The position numbers were made by a program, and so were the translations under genes. Shown one piece after another: positions 4,445 through 34,650 of a stretch of 34,868 nucleotides of DNA (positions are counted from its first letter, which is position 1; every line of letters begins with the position of its first letter). Location: IMG/VR virus record IMGVR_UViG_3300043539_000654, positions 1-34,868 of that record. The stretch is one strand, 5' to 3'. Under the pieces are notes generated by a model. That model did no database searches and was not told the DNA's origin. It saw only the letters and a program-made list of their open reading frames with translations. The stretch comes from a virus.

Positions 4445-4470
4445 CAATCTATACCCGCATGGTGTATATA
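4441..4470 (+). promoter_or_regulatory. Promoter with operator O3 upstream of the double-HTH gene
   Basis: TTGACA (4441-4446) and TATATA (4465-4470) are 18 bp apart. Operator copy TATACCC-GCATG-GTGTATA (4450-4468), one mismatch from a perfect palindrome, lies between them. This is the same design as the 2842 promoter, so the 4505 gene should follow the same repressor separately from the cassette promoter. Confidence 0.72.
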
Positions 4471-4504: not shown

Positions 4505-5191
4505 ATGGGAGCAAAGCATATCACTGCTCAGGAAAAAGAGCTTTTTCAAGTGTTAGTAAACACTGGTTTGTCTATGCAAAAGGTTGCAAGTCTCACAGGT
4601 CGTGACGCAGGAACCGTCAGTAATCATGTGACCTCAACTGTAAGTAATCATCTGACATCATCTGATACTAAACCGGTTGAAAATATCCATTTGACACAAG
4701 ATGAAATGTTTTTAATTTTAGATTTACACGCACAAGGAATGACTTGTACTCAAATTGGGAAAAAGGTTGATAAAGCACATGGCACGGTTTACAAAGTCAT
4801 AAATCAACTTTACCCAAAGCATAAAAAAGCCTATGAAAAATGGCTTGAGTTGCAAAAAGAAAAAGATGCACCAGCTCTTGTGATGGAAGTACAGCCGGTT
4901 GAAGAAAAAGCAGTACCGGCAGCGTTACTTGCTATCCGTGCGGCTCGTGCTGCTGGTAGGACATTACATCAAGAGCCGGTGGAAGTACACACAACCAAAA
5001 GTGAACCATGTGATTGCGACTTTGCAGATTCAAAGAGGTATCAGTTAATGGCAGATCAACTTAGAACCAACCGAGAATGTATTACTAAAAATGAGGCAAT
5101 AATCAAAAGTCAAATTCTATTGATTGCCGAATGTCAAGAAACTATAACTTTACTCAAAGAGCACATTCAGTTGCTCAAATCACTGCGGTAA
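4505..5191 (+). CDS. Double-HTH coiled-coil putative regulator
   Basis: A 228-residue protein. Residues 6-40 (ITAQEKELFQVLVNTGLSMQ and on to GRDAGTVSNH) and 66-100 (LTQDEMFLILDLHAQGMTCT and on to AHGTVYKV) both read as HTH domains of a similar type, probably an internal duplication. The C-terminal part (about 175-228) is a predicted coiled coil (ECITKNEAIIKSQILLIAEC and on), suited to dimerisation. It has its own repressor-type promoter, GGGAGATAA before ATG 4505, and a terminator after it. The coding sequence is clearly more AT-rich than its neighbours, which suggests separate ancestry. It could be an activator, antirepressor or second repressor; the sequence does not decide. Confidence 0.7.
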   Translation: MGAKHITAQEKELFQVLVNTGLSMQKVASLTGRDAGTVSNHVTSTVSNHLTSSDTKPVENIHLTQDEMFLILDLHAQGMTCTQIGKKVDKAHGTVYKVINQLYPKHKKAYEKWLELQKEKDAPALVMEVQPVEEKAVPAALLAIRAARAAGRTLHQEPVEVHTTKSEPCDCDFADSKRYQLMADQLRTNRECITKNEAIIKSQILLIAECQETITLLKEHIQLLKSLR

Positions 5192-24648: not shown

Positions 24649-25821
24649 TTAAACGGCACCCCAGCCTTTGCGTTGTCCGATCACTTGCCAAGCGTACGCC
24701 ATTGCGTCTACAACGTCATCATGCCTGCCAACTGGGAATGATAACAGTTCATCTTGCCAATACGGTGGCAACTGTTCAGCGTGTACAACTTGCCCTTGCT
24801 CGTACCGGGCTTCCAGTGGTCCAAAGCGGGTTACTTTGTCACGGTCTGGACGTATTCCCCGGATAGGCAGTTTTGTCCGCCTCATCAGCTCCTGCACGAC
24901 AGCGGCTTGGTATTGCACCTGCTCAATGCCAATCATCGTAGGTTTCCACTTTTCAGCCATCATCTCGATGAATCGCAATACGGAAGCAAAGTCAGCACGG
25001 GTACGGTTGACATCAAGAACGTATATCGTCCCATCTTCACCACGAGATAAAGCAACCACGGCTGTGTAGTCTGCTTCTGCCTTGGTACTGATGGCAAGGT
25101 CAACACCAAGGTAGACGGGCAAACCTTCAGGCGCATCACCAAAGCGTAGCCATTCCCGCTTGATCCGAGCGCCGCTTGCATCAACGAACTCTGCTAAGTA
25201 CTCTTGTCGGAAGGCTATGCTAGGCAAGGATTCACCAGCCTTTTCTACCTCAGCTGCATCTATCCAAGGGTTCGCCGTGGTTGGCATCTGCCAGCTCATC
25301 CAGTCTGGATCTAAAGCAGCCATGGAGTGCAGGGTTTTGAAGTAGTTACTACCCTTTGGAGTGCTCAAAAAGAAAGCATCTCCTCGGTAGTCGGTAAGAG
25401 TTGGGCGGATGGCTTCGGTCCACGCTTGTTCTAAGTGCCTGGCCATTGCCGCTTCATCAATGATAACCCGTTTATATTTCCGTCCACGGGCTACCGTGCT
25501 TGGATCGTCAAGTGTCCAATAGTCAATAGCCGCACCGGTAATCAGTTCAATGCGTGGTGCAGGTGTTTGCACAGCTCGCCTGATGACAGGAGCATATATC
25601 CTCTTATGGTCGTTGTACGCCTCTTCTAGGAGCCTGTAGGTTGGTGCAAACCAAGCACACGGCAGTCCGTTGGTTAGCACTGGTTCACTAAGCAAGTTAC
25701 CGCCAAGCGTTGTCTTGCCGAACCTACGACCACAGGCAAGAACATTGAATCGCTTTGCTTCCCTTAGAATCACCTGCTGGGCTTCGTGTGGCTTTGGAAG
25801 CACCAGCCTTATATCAGCCAT
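24649..25821 (-). CDS. terL: Terminase large subunit
   Basis: A 390-residue packaging motor. ATPase part: Walker A GRRFGKTT (31-38), Walker B VIIDEA (119-124), coupling motif STPKG (153-157). Nuclease part: GVDLA with D241, then D251, E300, and the closing HDDVVDAMAYAW with D368/D369/D372. The active-site residues are complete. It powers DNA entry into the prohead and cuts concatemers. It overlaps the small subunit by eight bases. The packaging type (cos or headful) cannot be read from the sequence. Confidence 0.95.
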   Translation of the reverse strand: MADIRLVLPKPHEAQQVILREAKRFNVLACGRRFGKTTLGGNLLSEPVLTNGLPCAWFAPTYRLLEEAYNDHKRIYAPVIRRAVQTPAPRIELITGAAIDYWTLDDPSTVARGRKYKRVIIDEAAMARHLEQAWTEAIRPTLTDYRGDAFFLSTPKGSNYFKTLHSMAALDPDWMSWQMPTTANPWIDAAEVEKAGESLPSIAFRQEYLAEFVDASGARIKREWLRFGDAPEGLPVYLGVDLAISTKAEADYTAVVALSRGEDGTIYVLDVNRTRADFASVLRFIEMMAEKWKPTMIGIEQVQYQAAVVQELMRRTKLPIRGIRPDRDKVTRFGPLEARYEQGQVVHAEQLPPYWQDELLSFPVGRHDDVVDAMAYAWQVIGQRKGWGAV

Positions 25822-26170
25822 TAGGTTTGTCTGCGTACTCTACAATTACTTTTACCGGTAAACCGTCTGCGCCGGTCTGCTCTATTCTTGATGACCAGTC
25901 GGCTTTGTGCTTGCGCTCAAGCCACCACGCCGCCGCCTGCCAAGTTGTGTCAGCTGCTTTTTGAATGATAGCAACGTTCCGAACCTCGGCATCCGCTTCT
26001 GCTTTTTTTATAGCGTCCGCAAATTCCGACTTGTCTCGCAGCCAGTTAGCAAAAGTATCTTCTGAAATAGCCGCATAAGAGCATGAAGCACGGCGGGTGT
26101 TTCCAGCCCTTAGTGCTTGCGTAATGCGCGTTATCGTTTCATCGTTGTATTTTGATGGTTTACCCGGCAT
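25814..26170 (-). CDS. terS: Terminase small subunit
   Basis: A 118-residue protein starting MPGKPSKYNDETITRITQAL, with an N-terminal HTH (ALRAGNTRRASCSYAAISED, then TFANWLRD) and a helical oligomerisation part (WQAAAWWLERKHKADW), as in many small terminases. ATG 26170 has GGAGG six bases upstream and overlaps the methyltransferase stop; a longer in-frame form is less likely. It recognises the packaging site and recruits TerL. Confidence 0.85.
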   Translation of the reverse strand: MPGKPSKYNDETITRITQALRAGNTRRASCSYAAISEDTFANWLRDKSEFADAIKKAEADAEVRNVAIIQKAADTTWQAAAWWLERKHKADWSSRIEQTGADGLPVKVIVEYADKPNG

Positions 26171-27215
26171 TATTAGCCTCCAGTTTGTCCAACCATTGCC
26201 ACTGGATCTGCTCAGCAATACGAGCGGTCATAACCGGAGGAACCGACATCCCGATTACATACTTTGGATCGGCATCCATGAAGTCATAATCTTGTGGATA
26301 ACTGCCACAACACTTAAGTTCTCTCACACTTAAAAATCGTTTTTTTGTTGGGACAACCATGGCTCCACCTGATGAAGCAACAATTGTATTACAAACATCT
26401 GTGTCACGAACAAATACTGAATTGAATCCTGTTGGCTTTCCAACTAATCTAAGATTTACATCGCCATATGTTTTGTCAGTTGCAATGTAGTTATCCCAAA
26501 TCCTTTTATCTCTTTCAGTTGGTTTTTTACATTGCCCATCACCTTCCCTTCGTATTTGACCAAAGGTTATAGGCTTGTCATCAAAGTTACACTTGAGCGG
26601 TTGAAGTTTCAAATCAGAACGCCGAGCAATGAAAAAAGAACGTTGCCGTTTCTGCGGAACTCCCATTGATGCTGCATTGAAAAGGAATACCTGGAGGTCG
26701 TATCCGGCATCATTGAAAGCCGTTTGTATCTCTTTCACGTATCCTTTAGCTGCTCCTTTGAGTAGTCCGCTGACATTCTCAGCGACTGCAACCTTAGGCT
26801 GCAATCGCTTCACAAGAGCTATGTATTCAAAGAATAAATCATCAAGCCGTTGTTTTGCTTGACCTTCCCGAAATTGTTTTTCTTTGCCCCAATCTTTTTC
26901 CCGATTACCTGCCGTGCTGAATGATGAGCATGGAGGCGAACCATCAAGGATGTCAAGATTGAATAGTTCAACGGGCAAATCTTCACGCTTACGGAATACC
27001 CGGATATCTTCCAAGTACACCATCTTAGGCTTGTGATTTTGTTTGTAAATGCGCGCCATCTGCGGATCAATCTCACAGATACCAAGCATTTCAAACCCGG
27101 CTAACTTGTAACCCATTGTAGATCCACCGCCACAGGCAAAAGTGCTAAACACTTTGTAGCCGTTGCGGGGCATGATGTAGCCATCTGCTAGATTCCATTC
27201 ATACGGGTATTTCAT
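26160..27215 (-). CDS. DNA (cytosine-5) methyltransferase
   Basis: A 351-residue m5C methyltransferase with all main motifs: motif I FSTFACGGGSTMG (about 23-35), motif IV GSPPC with catalytic C96, motif VI AENV (145-148), motif VIII VPQKRQRSFFI (186-196), motif IX LSVRELKCCGSYPQ (about 295-308) and motif X IGMSVPPVMTARIAEQI (about 321-337). No partner nuclease is present, so it is an orphan enzyme that probably protects phage DNA from host restriction or alters packaging or regulation. The target sequence cannot be deduced. It starts at an ATGA overlap with the ParB-like gene. Confidence 0.93.
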   Translation of the reverse strand: MKYPYEWNLADGYIMPRNGYKVFSTFACGGGSTMGYKLAGFEMLGICEIDPQMARIYKQNHKPKMVYLEDIRVFRKREDLPVELFNLDILDGSPPCSSFSTAGNREKDWGKEKQFREGQAKQRLDDLFFEYIALVKRLQPKVAVAENVSGLLKGAAKGYVKEIQTAFNDAGYDLQVFLFNAASMGVPQKRQRSFFIARRSDLKLQPLKCNFDDKPITFGQIRREGDGQCKKPTERDKRIWDNYIATDKTYGDVNLRLVGKPTGFNSVFVRDTDVCNTIVASSGGAMVVPTKKRFLSVRELKCCGSYPQDYDFMDADPKYVIGMSVPPVMTARIAEQIQWQWLDKLEANNAG

Positions 27216-27730: not shown

Positions 27731-27911
27731 CTAGATTCTTCCTTAGCTCCGCACTAGTAGCCCAGAGCATAGCAGCGCGCAGTTTATCCTTACTCATACC
27801 CTGAGCCTTAGCCCGTTTCTTTACATCAGCATACAGCCAGCGTGTATAGAGTTCGTTGTATACCGCCAAGCATCCAGCGCCCACCAAAGCACCAATAGCA
27901 AAAGGTATCAT
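27723..27911 (-). CDS. Small membrane protein, 62 aa
   Basis: A 62-residue protein with an N-terminal hydrophobic segment (about 3-18, PFAIGALVGAGCLAVY) and a basic tail (KKRAKAQGMSKDKLRA). It overlaps both neighbours at the start and stop codons (ATGA type), so it is probably translated in series. No family recognised. Confidence 0.65.
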   Translation of the reverse strand: MIPFAIGALVGAGCLAVYNELYTRWLYADVKKRAKAQGMSKDKLRAAMLWATSAELRKNLDE

Positions 27912-28147
27912 TTGGCAACCTCCCCGGTTCGCGGATCAAGTACAACGATGGCCCAGTCGTTAGCAAACAGGTCACCAGGGGACAGGCTCAGTTCTTCAAG
28001 TTGCGTTACCCGTTTCTGTGGCCCGTGAAGTTCAAAGATATTCCACACTTCGGAGTACCGCAAGAATACGGCTCCTCCCCACTCACCGCGCCATACGGCA
28101 TTACCGCCACCAGCCATCAAGGCTTGAATCACTTCTCCGAATCTCAT
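27908..28147 (-). CDS. DUF2829 / Tad2-like protein (possible Thoeris anti-defence)
   Basis: A 79-residue protein matching the DUF2829 layout: MRFGEVIQALMAGGGNAVWR at the start (xFGEAIxALxxGxxVxRxGW type) and LSPGDLFANDWAIV near the end (SDxLAxDWxIV type). Some DUF2829 proteins are Tad2, which sequesters the signalling nucleotide made by Thoeris ThsB and so blocks that defence. Not all members have been tested, so the function here is inferred. It starts in an ATGA overlap with thyX and ends in one with the small membrane gene. Confidence 0.75.
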   Translation of the reverse strand: MRFGEVIQALMAGGGNAVWRGEWGGAVFLRYSEVWNIFELHGPQKRVTQLEELSLSPGDLFANDWAIVVLDPRTGEVAK

Positions 28148-28773
28148 CCTATTACTCCCATTGTGATCGGCAGGTGTTCAGCCATCAAGGCTTTTATGCT
28201 GTCAGCAATCTGTCTATGCTCTACTTGCGTATCTTCCTGCGTCCTGAGCTGCACGTAGTGAATCCAAGACCGTATCGTGCCACTCATGTACAAAGTGGTC
28301 GGAGTGCAAAGCGGTAGTACCATTCTTGCAGTCTCCGCAGCGATACCGGCCTTGATTAGTTTGTTGTATGTCCAGTAGCCACGGGATACGGAGAGCCCAG
28401 CATCAAAGATGACTCCTTGCATCTCGGCATCCAACTCTTTCCATTCTGGCAACGGTTGTGAGCTTTGCCGGTTAGTTGTACCAGCAAGCCGCATCTGCCC
28501 CAGAATGGGGTAATCGTGAACCTCTGCGTACCGTTGGGAAAACTCTTGGAAAGAGAAACTTCGATGCCGCAGAATCTGCGGTGCGATAGCACGGGTGGTT
28601 TTGATTTCCACGCACATCGATGCCATCTCAAAGATTGACCAGTGACCGTGCTTGATGCAGTAAGAGAGCAACCGGGCCACGTCTGGGTTGTCTTGGTTGG
28701 CGGGATTGCTGACCCTTGCGCAGTATCCGATGACCTGCTCCGCTTCCGGTGTAATCCAGATAAGTTTTGTCAT
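28144..28773 (-). CDS. thyX: Flavin-dependent thymidylate synthase
   Basis: A 209-residue ThyX. The signature RHRx7S is at 69-79 (RHRSFSFQEFS, then QRY). The C-terminal SGTIRSWIHYVQLRTQEDTQ and VEHRQIA match the substrate-binding helices. It makes dTMP from dUMP using reduced flavin and methylene-THF, increasing thymidine supply for replication. It overlaps the genes on both sides by four bases and follows GGAGAT, so it is fully embedded in this operon, flanked by two DUF2829-type genes. Confidence 0.95.
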   Translation of the reverse strand: MTKLIWITPEAEQVIGYCARVSNPANQDNPDVARLLSYCIKHGHWSIFEMASMCVEIKTTRAIAPQILRHRSFSFQEFSQRYAEVHDYPILGQMRLAGTTNRQSSQPLPEWKELDAEMQGVIFDAGLSVSRGYWTYNKLIKAGIAAETARMVLPLCTPTTLYMSGTIRSWIHYVQLRTQEDTQVEHRQIADSIKALMAEHLPITMGVIG

Positions 28774-29183
28774 CCGTTGTATATCTCCCAGTCGAAAGCC
28801 AAGACATCAGCGGATCCGAAAGACGCCACCCGGCTGTAGTGCCGGTTACCAGCGCCATCAATCAGATAAAGGCATATCTTGCCATCGACCAGTTGAAGGA
28901 ACCACTGGGCAGCGTGGCGGCGTACCGTCATGCCAGCCCGCAAGCGTTCCAAGGCTGAAGGAAAGCCACCGCCAGAGAGGTTCATCCGCTGGGCTTCAAT
29001 GCTCTTTAGCTGTTCTTCGGTCCGTTCTTTTAGCCACCGGTTGACGGTGGTGTGCTGGAATCCTACAGCCCTTGCCGCTTCGTGGCATTTCATGCCTTCA
29101 GCCACCAAGGTTTCATACCGCTCTAAAAGATACTGCCGCTTTGCGCGGTTAGCAATCACCGATTCACTTGGTCTACCTACCAT
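28770..29183 (-). CDS. HTH protein fused to a DUF2829/Tad2-like domain
   Basis: A 137-residue two-part protein. Residues about 22-52 (YETLVAEGMKCHEAARAVGF, then QHTTVNRWLKERT) read as a Hin/resolvase-type HTH. Residues 74-137 follow the DUF2829 pattern: FPSALERLRAGMTVRRH, a strand core WFLQLVDGKICLYLID, and SADVLAFDWEI at the end. The second DUF2829 gene lies 620 bases downstream. The fusion could be a DNA-binding sensor of a nucleotide signal or a modified anti-defence protein. Only the domain order is visible; the function is inference, and the C-terminal match is weaker than for the 79-residue protein. Confidence 0.6.
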   Translation of the reverse strand: MVGRPSESVIANRAKRQYLLERYETLVAEGMKCHEAARAVGFQHTTVNRWLKERTEEQLKSIEAQRMNLSGGGFPSALERLRAGMTVRRHAAQWFLQLVDGKICLYLIDGAGNRHYSRVASFGSADVLAFDWEIYNG

Positions 29184-29406
29184 TATTTATCTCCTCGGCT
29201 TCCTTGGCTACACGATCAGCAAATGCAACGTCCTTGGTGGCTGTATAAGCCATATACCAGAGTGCCTTGATGCTGTCATCGGTAGGGCTACCTTTGTGCG
29301 GGACCCGCTGTAAGTACTTGACAACGTTCCCAGCTGCAAAGTCTAACCCCCAGTCGTCGATGACGCTGAGGGCCTGAATCTTTGTAGTCCGGTAATGACC
29401 GGTCAT
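29173..29406 (-). CDS. DUF3310-family protein
   Basis: A 77-residue protein with the DUF3310 pattern: HYRTTKIQALSVIDDWGLDF, then GNVVKYLQRVPHKG (27-40) and SIKALWYMAYTA. The family is common in phage nucleotide-metabolism regions; a kinase-like role has been suggested but not shown for this type. It overlaps the HTH gene by eleven bases and the 113-residue gene by four. Confidence 0.82.
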   Translation of the reverse strand: MTGHYRTTKIQALSVIDDWGLDFAAGNVVKYLQRVPHKGSPTDDSIKALWYMAYTATKDVAFADRVAKEAEEINNGR

Positions 29407-29744
29407 ACGGCTACATCTTCGGTTTTCTTGTGCATCATCCGGTCGATGTTGTAGGACACAGCCCAGATGTCAGCGATGACATCCGCTACCTTCAGGTAGC
29501 CAACCCAGTAAGGATTCTGGATGCACTCACCAAACCAAGAGTTGCAGTCAAAGATGCCGGTATCATCACCCGACATAGCAACCATAAGGTGCAAGTCACC
29601 CTTGGTCATGTGGATTTCGGAATGATCGGAACTAACCTGAATCTGCAATGGGCAATCGATCACATTGAACGCTTCACCCCGGTTGATGGTCTGCTGTGCC
29701 AAGTCTGTAATGACTTCGGCTAAAGTCTTTTCTGTTACTGTCAT
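29403..29744 (-). CDS. Hypothetical protein, 113 aa
   Basis: A 113-residue protein (MTVTEKTLAEVITDLAQQTI, then a beta region LQIQVSSDHSEIHMTKGDLH and a helical end DVIADIWAVSYNIDRMMHKK). No family is recognised. GGGAGATAA lies directly upstream of ATG 29744. It is in the same run of overlapping genes as DUF3310, so a role in DNA or nucleotide metabolism is possible. Confidence 0.65.
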   Translation of the reverse strand: MTVTEKTLAEVITDLAQQTINRGEAFNVIDCPLQIQVSSDHSEIHMTKGDLHLMVAMSGDDTGIFDCNSWFGECIQNPYWVGYLKVADVIADIWAVSYNIDRMMHKKTEDVAV

Positions 29745-29762
29745 TTTTTATCTCCCAAAGTT

Positions 29763-29784
29763 GGGAGGGATTCTAGCCCCTCCC
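29763..29784 (-). other. Hairpin before the 113-aa gene
   Basis: GGGAGGG (29763-29769) pairs with CCCTCCC (29778-29784), 8-base loop, in the 59-base gap after the SSB-like gene. No T-tract. It could be a processing or attenuation point. Confidence 0.5.
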
Positions 29785-30292: not shown

Positions 30293-30335
30293 ATCGTCTC
30301 CTTGGGCTACCGCCCGGTCATTGGCCCTATTGCCA

Positions 30336-30371
30336 GTTCAATATATACCATACCGGTATAAAGTGCCAAAC
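30336..30371 (-). promoter_or_regulatory. Promoter with operator O6 for the SSB-like gene
   Basis: Minus-strand TTGGCA and TATATA are 16 bp apart. Operator TATATAC-CATAC-CGGTATA (30342-30360) lies between and over them. Its first 11 bases match O1. It restarts transcription for the nucleotide-metabolism genes under repressor control. Confidence 0.65.
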
Positions 30372-30901: not shown

Positions 30902-32214
30902 TACCGCTTGTAATACCGCTTGCTACGGCACTCAATCAGCTGTAATTCCATTGCCTCATCAATGGTTTCCCAAACCAGATTTCTATTCTTCTTCAGCCCA
31001 TCACAGATACCACTTTTGGTCTTGCCGGGGTTGTCTGCCACATACTGAGCAACCCGATCTAATACCTCCGTTTCACTTCCAGCCGTTGTGATTTGCTGTA
31101 GTGCTATCTGCCCCGGTTCATCGGTGTTGAGCCTGTACACAAAGTGGACCCAGTCATCCTCCCCAATGTGCCTGTGTTTGACCGTACGCACGTCATACGT
31201 CTTGGCTTCGATGTCGTGGTTGATAGACAACACCATGTCGGCCTGTGCAGCCAAATCAGAGGCCCCACGCATGGTGTCCTGAGTGATAGCCGTTCCCGGT
31301 GCTAATTTTTTATTATGGTGAAGAATCACAACCGCAGCCCCTGCATCAATCAGTTCTTGAAACCGGTCATAGAGTTTGGCAACCGCGCCATTGTCGTTTT
31401 CATCCATGCCATGCACACGAACAAAAGTATCAACAACCACTAGCTGGATGTCATTATCTTTGATGTACTTCACGAGCGCGTCAACGTGGTACCGCTTGTC
31501 TACCTTGGTATTCTTTTTTTGGATGATATGAAGGTTTGGCAGGTCGGTGTTGTGCATCATGCAGAACCGCCCCCAGAACTGCTTTAGGTTTATTTCCTCA
31601 TTGATGTACAGCACCTTAGCCGGGGTTGTCTCAATGAAGTTGCACCATGGTCTACCTGAAGCGCAAGCAATCGCAAGGTCAATACCAAGCCACGATTTAC
31701 CTGATCCGGATGCGGCAGCAATAAAGTGTAGCCCTTTGTGGATAACCATATTCTCAGCTATCCATTCTTGCTCTGGGCAGTTTTGCCCCTCTTCCTTGAA
31801 GCGCCACCAGTTCCAAATCTCAAGCTCGACTTCCGGTACAACCTTCACCGCCAACTCTTCCCGTAGCATGGCAGGGGTTAACGGTGGTAGGTCGGAATCT
31901 TTCCAGTCTGCCCACGCCCTAGCAACCTTTTCGGTTACCTCGTGTTCTTCCATTGGCGGATCACAATAGGTGCGGTTCCAATCCAAGATGCCAGAAAGTG
32001 CAAAATTGATATGTAGCCGTGTGCTCCTGTAGTACCCCACGCAAGCCGTTAGAGCATTGTCCCGCCCACCGTAAGGGCCGCCCCCTTCAGGGTGCCGTTG
32101 TAATAACTTCTTTAGCGTTCCATCATCGGAATCACTGCCGGTGTACTCGCCACGCTCTGCCCGTGGCTTACGCTTTGGAGTAGCGTCCAGCTCATCAAAC
32201 CATTCATCACCCAA
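30901..32214 (-). CDS. PriCT-domain primase-helicase (RecA-like ATPase)
   Basis: A 437-residue protein. Residues about 32-110 form a PriCT-type primase C-terminal domain (GRDNALTACVGYYRS, then YCDPPMEEHEVTEKVARAWA). A RecA-type ATPase follows: Walker A AASGSGKS (167-174) and Walker B LVVVDTF (258-264), with VVILHHNKK and MRGASDLAAQADMV further on, as in RepA/AAA_25 hexameric helicases. It overlaps the primase gene by 8 bases, so primase and helicase are two proteins made from adjacent frames. The TTG start (32214) follows GAGG. It unwinds DNA at the replication fork. Confidence 0.88.
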   Translation of the reverse strand: MGDEWFDELDATPKRKPRAERGEYTGSDSDDGTLKKLLQRHPEGGGPYGGRDNALTACVGYYRSTRLHINFALSGILDWNRTYCDPPMEEHEVTEKVARAWADWKDSDLPPLTPAMLREELAVKVVPEVELEIWNWWRFKEEGQNCPEQEWIAENMVIHKGLHFIAAASGSGKSWLGIDLAIACASGRPWCNFIETTPAKVLYINEEINLKQFWGRFCMMHNTDLPNLHIIQKKNTKVDKRYHVDALVKYIKDNDIQLVVVDTFVRVHGMDENDNGAVAKLYDRFQELIDAGAAVVILHHNKKLAPGTAITQDTMRGASDLAAQADMVLSINHDIEAKTYDVRTVKHRHIGEDDWVHFVYRLNTDEPGQIALQQITTAGSETEVLDRVAQYVADNPGKTKSGICDGLKKNRNLVWETIDEAMELQLIECRSKRYYKR

Positions 32215-33073
32215 AGTAATACCTCATTATCTCCGGCAGGTCTGCTCGGACGATATCTAATCTATATCTCCATCGCTCGTCAGCTTCAAACACCTGACAC
32301 GCTTCCAATGCTTCGATGAAGAACACATCTAGCGAGTCGGTTATCCTACCGCTTGCGTGATGTATACGTGGCTCTGACTTGCCAAGTTGTCCCTGTAGTG
32401 CGGAAGCCAACAAAGCATCTAAACGTTGATCACCGAGGTGTCGAACCAACAATGATTCCTTGTACGTTGGCCGCATCAAGCCACCCTTCAGTAATACGAC
32501 TGGCTTCGGGTTGCTTTGATCTTTCCAATTTAGCGTGCCGGGGATACGTAGGATGCGATCAAGGTTAGATACATTATCAGTACCGGGTAAAACCTTGTCT
32601 GCAAAGTCTCGTATGCGACCTTCCATTGCTGAACGTTCTCGTGTTGATCCGCAAGCCTTTGAGGAAGATAGAACCTTGTAGCCATGCCAACCATTGCCCG
32701 TATGAACCACGATGTCGCAGCCGTCGAGTAAACCTTGACTACTGCCGGGTACTTTAGAATCAAGGTCAATCCAAACTGCACCTACCTGCTCTATAGAATC
32801 CTTGCCCAGCTTACGTCCCGGTCCTTCAGGTGCAGCACGGGGACATACCCCGCAGTAGACATCGTAACCACGAATGGCTAGGCTGATGATGTGTTGGGTT
32901 AGCGCTTGACCTTCTTCACCTCGCAGACAATAAGGCAGTCTGTAAGTGGTTCGGTTAGCGTGGGGCTTGACCTTAGATAAAGGTCTGATTTCAATGAACC
33001 CGTCTTGATAGGGTTTGAATAGATGCCGCAGGAAGGCGATCGCCATCCCGGCATCCGTGGCTGGTATAGCCAT
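32207..33073 (-). CDS. AEP/RepB-type DNA primase (right-end allele)
   Basis: The 288-residue allele of the primase. D103 and D105 in WIDLD, GNGWHGY (126-132) and DRILRIPGTLNWK (172-184) mark the primase core. It is one residue shorter than the left-end copy (SKVPG-SSQ versus SKVPGASSQ). ATG 33073 follows the structured leader. The unchanged C-terminus (LPEIMRYYFG) overlaps the helicase start, which constrains it. Confidence 0.87.
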   Translation of the reverse strand: MAIPATDAGMAIAFLRHLFKPYQDGFIEIRPLSKVKPHANRTTYRLPYCLRGEEGQALTQHIISLAIRGYDVYCGVCPRAAPEGPGRKLGKDSIEQVGAVWIDLDSKVPGSSQGLLDGCDIVVHTGNGWHGYKVLSSSKACGSTRERSAMEGRIRDFADKVLPGTDNVSNLDRILRIPGTLNWKDQSNPKPVVLLKGGLMRPTYKESLLVRHLGDQRLDALLASALQGQLGKSEPRIHHASGRITDSLDVFFIEALEACQVFEADERWRYRLDIVRADLPEIMRYYFG

Positions 33074-33079
33074 GGGTGT

Positions 33080-33169
33080 AACCTGTTGTCCTTAGAGATA
33101 CCTGCTACTGGTAACCCTTCGGTAGCTACTCCGAAGGGTGGACAAGGTCCATAACCAGAAGGACAGGTT
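33080..33169 (-). promoter_or_regulatory. Structured RNA leader of the primase gene (allele 2)
   Basis: Same nested design as 991-1079. The central stem is ACCCTTCGG (33114-33122) with CCGAAGGGT (33131-33139). The base pair C-G of allele 1 is T-A here, a two-sided change that keeps the pair. The loop sequence and length differ (TAGCTACT versus GGATCAG). CTGGT (33108-33112) pairs with ACCAG (33154-33158), and AACCTG/TCCTT (33080-33093) with AAGGACAGGTT (33159-33169). Confidence 0.65.
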
Positions 33170-33177
33170 CAGCAACA

Positions 33178-33537
33178 TTATACATCGAAAGTAAAACCCA
33201 CGTAATCGGCTATCAACTTGGCTGCATCTGTCCACGAATATGCAATCCGGAAGGTGTAGCCATACGGCATCAAGGCATCTCTAAAAGCCACTTGCCCCGG
33301 TGTCAGCCTACCTTTTCCAGCCTTCATCTCGATGTAAAGCCCGGGCGCCGGGCAAGGTAGAAAGATGTCCCAAACACCCGGTTTGACACCCATGGCTTTG
33401 AACTTTGCAGCTGAACGAGGGTCACGATAGCCACCGTTAGGGCAATGGTAGATACTTGCAAGCTCAGGATGTTTTGACTGCATCAGACGTACCCAAGTAA
33501 TCAAGGCTATCTGCTCGCGGTCTTCAAGATGTTTCAT
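33178..33537 (-). CDS. VRR-NUC domain nuclease (right-end allele)
   Basis: The 119-residue allele of the 1088-1447 nuclease, with the same catalytic pattern (GVWDIF, IEMKAGKG, LTPGQ). About 20 substitutions, many in the C-terminal third (for example FRIAYSWTDAAKLIADYV versus FVVAYSWHDAAKAIADHV). It overlaps the sigma gene stop by 14 bases. Confidence 0.87.
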   Translation of the reverse strand: MKHLEDREQIALITWVRLMQSKHPELASIYHCPNGGYRDPRSAAKFKAMGVKPGVWDIFLPCPAPGLYIEMKAGKGRLTPGQVAFRDALMPYGYTFRIAYSWTDAAKLIADYVGFTFDV

Positions 33538-34345
33538 ATATGGTTCTCATTTCGGCTAGTGCTTTGTAGATGCGCTCTTTGACCACTGATGGCGGTATAC
33601 GGTATCGACTGGCTACCATGTGAATGCTTTGCGGTACACGTCCATCAAGCCCAAGGTGCAGGGCTATCATCTGCCGGGTCTCATCATCCAGTACGCCTAA
33701 CGCTGTCATCAGGGTACCGTCTTCAGCTTCAGAAAAATACTCATCCTCGGCAGATGCTGTAGATCCAAAGATAGCAGTATCACCAAGTACCAGTTGAGAA
33801 CCCTGTACCGGGGTCTCAATAGATACCGGCTCGATGCCTGATGCCGTGCGGCATATCTCGATGGTTTCAATGGTCATACCAGAGCGTTCTGATAACTCGT
33901 CATCGGTCGGTGGTCTGCGCAGCTCCATTTCCAAGATGACGTAGAACCGTTTGAGTTTGTGCCACTTGACCAGTGCGTGTTCGGCTATCCGGATGGTTCG
34001 GTATTGGTTAGATTGATATCGTCTAAGTTTCTGATATAGCCAAGGGTGAGCATAGGTTGAGAAACGTAAGCCACGCTCAGGCTCCCACTTTTCGATGGCA
34101 CGAATCAAGCCCTCAACGCAGTACTGGCAAGCATCCGTGAAGTGTTCTTTGTGTTTGATAACCTTACAGACTTCACGAACGAAAGCAAAGTTATGGCGGA
34201 TCATAGCGTCAAAGCAATTATCTTTATAAATGCCATTCGACCAGCCGTAGTGCAGTAAGACCATCTCATCATGAGATAACAAACGCTCCGGCGCCTTATG
34301 TAAAGCCCGGAGCGTCTGTCGAATAGTACTTGGTCTGGGTATCAA
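33524..34345 (-). CDS. Phage-encoded sigma-70 family factor (right-end allele)
   Basis: The 273-residue allele of the 1434-2255 sigma factor. Regions 2, 3 and 4 are conserved; substitutions are conservative (DD to DN, ALDSE to VLDDE, ELK to EMR). The TTG start at 34345 overlaps the stop of the zinc-ribbon gene exactly as in the other allele, while the 14 codons further upstream diverge, which supports this start over the GTG at 34387. Confidence 0.9.
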   Translation of the reverse strand: MIPRPSTIRQTLRALHKAPERLLSHDEMVLLHYGWSNGIYKDNCFDAMIRHNFAFVREVCKVIKHKEHFTDACQYCVEGLIRAIEKWEPERGLRFSTYAHPWLYQKLRRYQSNQYRTIRIAEHALVKWHKLKRFYVILEMELRRPPTDDELSERSGMTIETIEICRTASGIEPVSIETPVQGSQLVLGDTAIFGSTASAEDEYFSEAEDGTLMTALGVLDDETRQMIALHLGLDGRVPQSIHMVASRYRIPPSVVKERIYKALAEMRTIYETS

Positions 34346-34650
34346 CGAACCCCCTGCGCTCGTAGCAGTGCTGGCTTGGTTTCCCACTCGTATCGTAAAG
34401 CGTCCTTAGCTGCAGCAATCATGCCAAGCAAAAGCAGGACACTTACCGCACAAATAACACCTGCCCGAATAGAATCTCTTACCGCACGGTTACGGCTCAG
34501 GTAGGCTGTCCTGTGGGATTCCAAGGCATAAGCCTTCTCACGAGCCTGCCGGGTTTGCTCCTGCTGGTCTTGCCACTCTGCCATCCGGCAAGCCATACAA
34601 ATCGAATCATTATCCATAACATCATGCGCACAGTCGTTGCATCGTTGCAT
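34342..34650 (-). CDS. Zinc-ribbon single-pass membrane protein (right-end allele)
   Basis: The 102-residue allele of the 2252-2560 gene. All four Cys and the membrane segment are unchanged; differences are concentrated at residues about 31-49, in the charged linker (EQTRQAREKAYALESHR versus AQAQKLRERHYALEAMR). Conserved ends with a variable linker fit a protein whose binding head and membrane anchor matter most. Confidence 0.75.
   Translation of the reverse strand: MQRCNDCAHDVMDNDSICMACRMAEWQDQQEQTRQAREKAYALESHRTAYLSRNRAVRDSIRAGVICAVSVLLLLGMIAAAKDALRYEWETKPALLRAQGVR

Follow-up and report, generated by a model that had tools for sequence, protein, structure and literature searches.

Gene content of the window

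The window, meaning the whole stretch of DNA analysed, is the IMG/VR virus record IMGVR_UViG_3300043539_000654, with a length of 34,868 bases. It carries genes of a tailed phage, among them those for a terminase, a C5 DNA methylase, an AAA/primase protein and a sigma-70-type factor of the phage. The features of the locus under study are as follows.

28770-29183, (-): HTH-Tad2-like fusion gene, an ORF of 137 aa with Pfam HTH_23 and Tad2-like matches; core gene in relatives
28977-29159, (-): N-terminal helix-turn-helix (HTH) region of the fusion, residues 9-69, helices 9-28, 33-39 and 44-69
28779-28967, (-): C-terminal Tad2-fold domain of the fusion, residues 73-135, from domain model, VIA-align and hhalign
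29173-29406, (-): DUF3310 protein (Pfam DUF3310, 4.8e-10), directly upstream and overlapping the fusion start; order conserved
28144-28773, (-): thyX (Pfam Thy1, 1.4e-42), between the fusion and the single-domain Tad2-like gene
27908-28147, (-): single-domain Tad2-like protein of 79 aa, which keeps R-x-x-W; Pfam 25.4 bits against a cut-off of 25; same operon in relatives
30339-30369, (-): operon promoter TTGGCA-N16-TATATA/T upstream of g162, with the inverted repeat TATACC-N5-GGTATA in its spacer and -10

The sigma-70-type factor (regions 2 and 3) occurs at 33524-34387 and at 1434-2297. It is one of four genes (primase-like, VRR_NUC-like, sigma factor and a 102-aa protein) of which diverged copies lie at both contig ends, at 116-2560 and 32207-34650, as if the assembly had gone around a circle of genome and continued in a sister strain, with a unit of about 32.1 kb.

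Conservation of the locus in related phages

When viral contigs were scanned, about 200 overlapping loci were recovered. The gene order in the relatives was g162 - (g113) - DUF3310 - HTH-Tad2 - (thyX) - Tad2-like - g62 - ParB-like. Among loci picked through the single-domain neighbour and having at least 2.5 kb upstream, the fusion was present in 30 of 30, and it belongs to the core genes of this lineage of uncultured tailed phages. It shows purifying selection, with dN/dS well below 1 when close relatives were compared and dN well below dS throughout.

At this place in the operon the gene comes in two forms: type A, which is that of the window, and type B, which has an unrelated N-terminus. 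The Tad2 halves of the two types share 42% identity (hhalign E 1.3e-13 over 64 columns), and no relationship could be detected between their N-termini (E 0.058 over 8 columns). There was no Pfam HTH match in the N-terminus of 13 type-B relatives; a sequence pattern suggests that type B may also have an HTH and bind DNA. Within type A, the mean pairwise identity is 81% in the Tad2 half and 53% in the HTH half. The HTH half appears to be fast-evolving or exchanged (type A or B), and the putative effector half to be held more constant.

The original prediction placed a sensor and a sponge in one operon, on both sides of thyX. Across 151 loci, thyX lies between the fusion and the Tad2-like neighbour in 84 and is absent from there in 67, and therefore it is optional cargo and not part of the device. 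By type, it was found between both genes in 76 of 93 type-A loci versus 8 of 58 type-B loci. It occurs mostly with type A and rarely with type B, as if moving together.

Relatives were searched for beyond this lineage. A pattern scan of 84,980 bacterial species genomes and a profile search of four bacterial genomes found none, and cultured phages had no relative of either the fusion or its single-domain neighbour; eight cultured-phage matches from one search were weak HTH-like stretches in tape measure genes. A pattern search of viral contigs gave no relatives of SPO1-type Tad2. No HTH-Tad2 fusion was found in the literature searched, in which this architecture appears to be undescribed.

The N-terminal half is a helix-turn-helix

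Residues 26-53 of the fusion match HTH_23 (PF13384) with 29.1 bits, above the cut-off of 24.6, and the N-terminus has a three-helix HTH arrangement. The match was found in 21 of 21 type-A members. Mean pLDDT of the AlphaFold2 model was 81-93 in the blocks covering residues 11-60. Weak structural matches of this half were to TnpE, DesR, DeoR, region 4 of SigD and HTHs of small terminases. The fusion itself was ruled out as the small terminase, which is a separate gene:

25814-26218: small terminase (Sf6-like TerS), match just under the cut-off

The C-terminal half has a Tad2 fold

The motifs SALERLRAGMTVRR and SADVLAFDWEI, which had been quoted as a DUF2829 pattern, are present in the fusion ORF. 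Pfam Tad2-like (PF11195, the AcrIIA7-type DUF2829) aligned with residues 74-134 over model positions 3-72 of 73, and a search of whole contigs with PF11195 returned the same ORF. The score of the fusion alone was below the curated cut-off (14.6 against 25 bits, E 0.049). The match recurred in all 21 type-A relatives (best E 0.0013) and all 13 type-B relatives (best E 0.0032). With hhalign, the fusion family was aligned to SPO1 Tad2, taken from the annotated SPO1 genome, across the full domain with E 3.7e-5.

In a first model, made from type A sequences only, the C-terminus was of low confidence (pLDDT 55 and 32 for its final blocks), and Foldseek gave no matches with it. A template-free model of residues 63-137 was then built from 40 sequences of the window and sister phages, and it had a pLDDT of 89 and a pTM of 0.77. 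When VIA-align was run on the 1000 best chains of Foldseek, ranks 1-10 were all Tad2 entries of the PDB (SPO1, SptTad2, HgmTad2/AcrIIA7 (8kbi) and Myroides Tad2), with Z 8.9-10.2, rmsd 1.6-1.9 A and 60-65 residues aligned at 22-35% identity. The best non-Tad2 row had Z 5.4 and rmsd 4.0 A. The Tad2 match comes from VIA-align: Foldseek alone gave nothing significant with the 40-sequence model, and when proteins of the window were compared with PDB sequences, only chance matches came up. The matched structures were released from 2023 on, later than the training data of AlphaFold2, so the model was not copied from them.

Four lines, namely Pfam matches in relatives, hhalign, the domain model and VIA-align, point to the same conclusion, and by sequence comparison and modelling we regard the Tad2-like half as real and the HTH plus Tad2-fold architecture as confirmed. 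This is what the original prediction had proposed for the fusion, together with a second Tad2-like gene nearby, and the suggested structure prediction and fold comparison came out in its favour. Its interpretation as a whole was partly supported, as discussed below.

The pocket looks changed but maintained

The Tad2 sponges (SPO1 Tad2, SptTad2, HgmTad2/AcrIIA7 and Myroides Tad2; PF11195) have the fold of the whole C-terminal domain of the fusion, and share with it the framework residues R89, D126, L128, A129, D131 and W132 at 22-35% identity. In seven canonical Tad2 domains, the invariant residues (numbered as in sequence L221) are R21, G23, W24, N25, G26, M29, W72, S75, D78, L80, A81, D83 and W84. 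Unlike the sponges, the fusion has an N-terminal HTH, a DGAGNR motif of its own and a Pfam score under the cut-off. The G-W-N-G..M loop signature of the sponges is replaced, with a shorter loop and A92 in place of W24, and A120 replaces W72; both tryptophan positions are invariant alanines in the HTH-fused form. Not one HTH-fused domain among 95 distinct ones keeps the R-x-x-W position, which is present in at least 190 of the 218 single-domain Tad2-like ORFs from these phages. Tad2 also has an insertion, located after beta2 and before the next long strand, that is reported to bind cyclic dinucleotides (CDN) (PMC12043709). In the fusion this insertion is absent: there is a two-residue turn, D100-G101, compared with about 24 residues in SPO1 Tad2.

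Across types A and B, 16 positions are at least 95% identical, and eight of them (A92, D109, G110, A111, G112, R114, A120 and F122) are not common with canonical Tad2. The gcADPR pocket of Tad2 is surrounded by the beta1-beta2, beta3-beta4, beta4 and beta4-alpha elements according to a review (PMC12043709). When residues were assigned to elements by the secondary structure of the predicted model, all eight HTH-form-specific invariants fell in these same pocket-wall elements. Because they gather there, the pocket looks re-specialised, as a site that has been altered and yet preserved. A structural role is also conceivable for the DGAGNR turn and the invariant alanines.

We can weigh two explanations against these residues. 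The first is that of the original prediction, in which the fusion, as a transcription factor, would detect gcADPR or some other known immune nucleotide and regulate the sponge next to it. It agrees with the true Tad2 fold, with the presence of single-domain Tad2-like genes in the same operon and with invariant residues at pocket positions. The original prediction had named a different fold or absent ligand residues as grounds for rejecting it; the fold is that of Tad2, and the ligand residues are in part absent, as R-x-x-W is in 95 of 95, which goes part of the way to refuting it. The alanines at W24/W72, the missing G-W-N-G..M loop and the missing CDN-binding insertion also speak against sensing of these nucleotides, which is not supported by a domain without the canonical pocket signature. 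In addition, the fusion and its neighbour belong to a single series of genes that overlap or abut, which would make it hard to switch the sponge on its own. The sensing of an immune nucleotide is possible but weakened as an idea, and we consider the model with a known nucleotide improbable.

The second explanation is a pure oligomerisation module, in which the Tad2-type domain would do no more than assemble the HTH into a multimer, without a small ligand, and the multimer would act structurally on the phage's DNA (in replication, copy control or packaging). The Tad2 of SPO1 forms a tetramer, interlocked at alpha1 (PMC12043709). A tetrameric parent, the loss of the R-x-x-W position in every HTH-fused domain and the likeness of the HTH to those of small terminases and transposases all fit such a module, but the group-specific invariants are in the pocket-lining elements and not at alpha1, and the phage has its separate small terminase gene at 25814-26218. 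We consider the module somewhat unlikely.

Because the defining features that were tested are not found in it, the fusion should not be classed among the Tad2 sponges. More probably it is a regulator bound to DNA, in which the Tad2 domain has been put to another use.

Promoter, inverted repeats and hairpins

The inverted repeat of the operon promoter, or a variant of it, is present in 73 of 78 distinct operon promoters of relatives versus 27% of shuffled sequences. The full promoter-plus-repeat pattern was too strict for the window's own promoter, and the repeat alone was therefore counted. Allowing at most two mismatches, TATACC-N5-GGTATA has nine sites in the window against 0.84 expected, and none of 100 shuffles reached nine. 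The sites and an adjoining repressor gene are as follows.

2809, 2851, 4450, 4467, 24222, 24606 and 30344, also 8837 and 22577: inverted-repeat sites
2579-2800, (-): XRE-type repressor gene, 73 aa, adjoining two repeat copies in a divergent promoter region

The nine repeats are a candidate operator set, probably for this XRE-type repressor, which is a likelier binder of the operon repeat than HTH-Tad2. Identical promoters occur with type A and with type B: among 98 identical pairs, 56 were of the same type, compared with a shuffled mean of 48.7, and 36 of 500 shuffles reached 56. Because identical promoters accompany both types, there is no clear link between the operator and the type of HTH.

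These results bear on a two-in-one protein, in which the HTH would repress its own operon and the Tad2 domain would block or sequester a defence factor or signal. AcrIIA15 is an autorepressing HTH joined to an anti-CRISPR domain (PMC10901769), and AcrIIA7 itself is a DUF2829/Tad2 protein (PMC6739104; 8kbi). Like the fusion, AcrIIA15 comes from phage and joins an HTH at its N-terminus to a C-terminal domain of counter-defence type, and it is the nearest functional precedent for joining the two; it differs in its C-terminal domain and target. The inverted repeat in the relatives' promoters also fits such a protein, but identical operators accompany both HTH types, the XRE-type repressor, whose own promoter region contains similar repeats, is the better candidate for binding, and the canonical sponge residues are absent from the fusion. 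A role of HTH-Tad2 as autorepressor or operon-operator binder is not supported, and we regard the two-in-one protein as quite unlikely.

Several other elements were observed. The tandem repeats at 4450 and 4467 precede a gene for a 228-aa protein (4505-5191, (+)) with two HTH-like stretches. A small hairpin at 30304-30315 (-) lies directly 5' of the g162 ribosome-binding site, and at the same place in relatives; it is present in all but 6 of about 130 loci and shows compensatory changes (GGGC/GCCC, GAGCC/GGCTC, AAGCC/GGCTT, GATCC/GGATC and TGGACT/AGTCCA). Another hairpin, CTCCCAA-CT-TTGGGAG at 29752-29767 (-), overlaps the ribosome-binding site of g113 (29403-29744).

Proposed function

An effector or oligomerisation role of the Tad2-derived domain within a DNA-binding protein is the best-supported reading. 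In the form that we tentatively favour, and which may be nearly as likely right as wrong, the fusion would be a DNA-binding protein of the phage that has, as its C-terminal half, a Tad2 homologue with a re-specialised pocket. By analogy with the SPO1 Tad2 tetramer, the Tad2-type domain would make the fusion an oligomer. It would bind an effector or a protein partner, but not gcADPR or a cyclic dinucleotide in the canonical manner, and such binding would control how the HTH binds phage DNA. We further speculate that the fusion is a transcription factor with the Tad2-derived domain as its effector-binding part, which would read a host immune or stress nucleotide outside the known Tad2 ligands and adjust phage gene expression to the defence of the host; we consider this unlikely. 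Should the ligand be a host signal, phages would be able to sense immunity besides blunting it. In any of these forms, a Tad2 fold has been built into a DNA-binding protein and its pocket, as modelled, appears rewritten yet under strong selection.

Other multi-domain Tad2-like proteins and the Tad2-like expansion

Tad2 proteins had been described as single-domain in the original prediction, and this does not hold: additional N-terminal domains are common among the Tad2-like proteins of cultured phages and prophages, and N-terminal extensions of at least 25 aa were found in 43 of 80 Tad2-like proteins of bacterial genomes, some of which may be start-codon artefacts. Phage_gp49_66 is the one recurrent named N-terminal partner. 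Proteins with this or another N-terminal domain are multi-domain with a Tad2-like end, like the fusion. Unlike the fusion, these proteins have Tad2 halves that keep the canonical signature, and an HTH was found in 0 of 38 scanned N-termini of canonical Tad2-like proteins. The search for other HTH-DUF2829 fusions, which had been proposed at the outset, thus gave none outside the lineage. When 398 genomes from a single phylum were surveyed by profile, Tad2-like matches were found in four. Apparent tandem Tad2-like domains in one protein were observed in bacterial genomes at two loci (L283, 1246-1779; L286, 1258-1743), and many further Tad2-like proteins of genomes carry a phage domain at the N-terminus, such as Phage_gp49_66.

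The locus is a Tad2-like expansion, with the HTH form and its 79-aa neighbour as standing members. In sister phages, more single-domain Tad2-like genes are present in the cassette that in the window contains thyX, mostly with two to four Tad2-like ORFs per locus and up to six, and these ORFs fall into about 25 clusters at 45% identity. Such divergent genes in this lineage are a natural panel for new Tad2 ligands. Sister loci with many of them include L136 (4039-7400), L095, L108, L131, L067 and L008.
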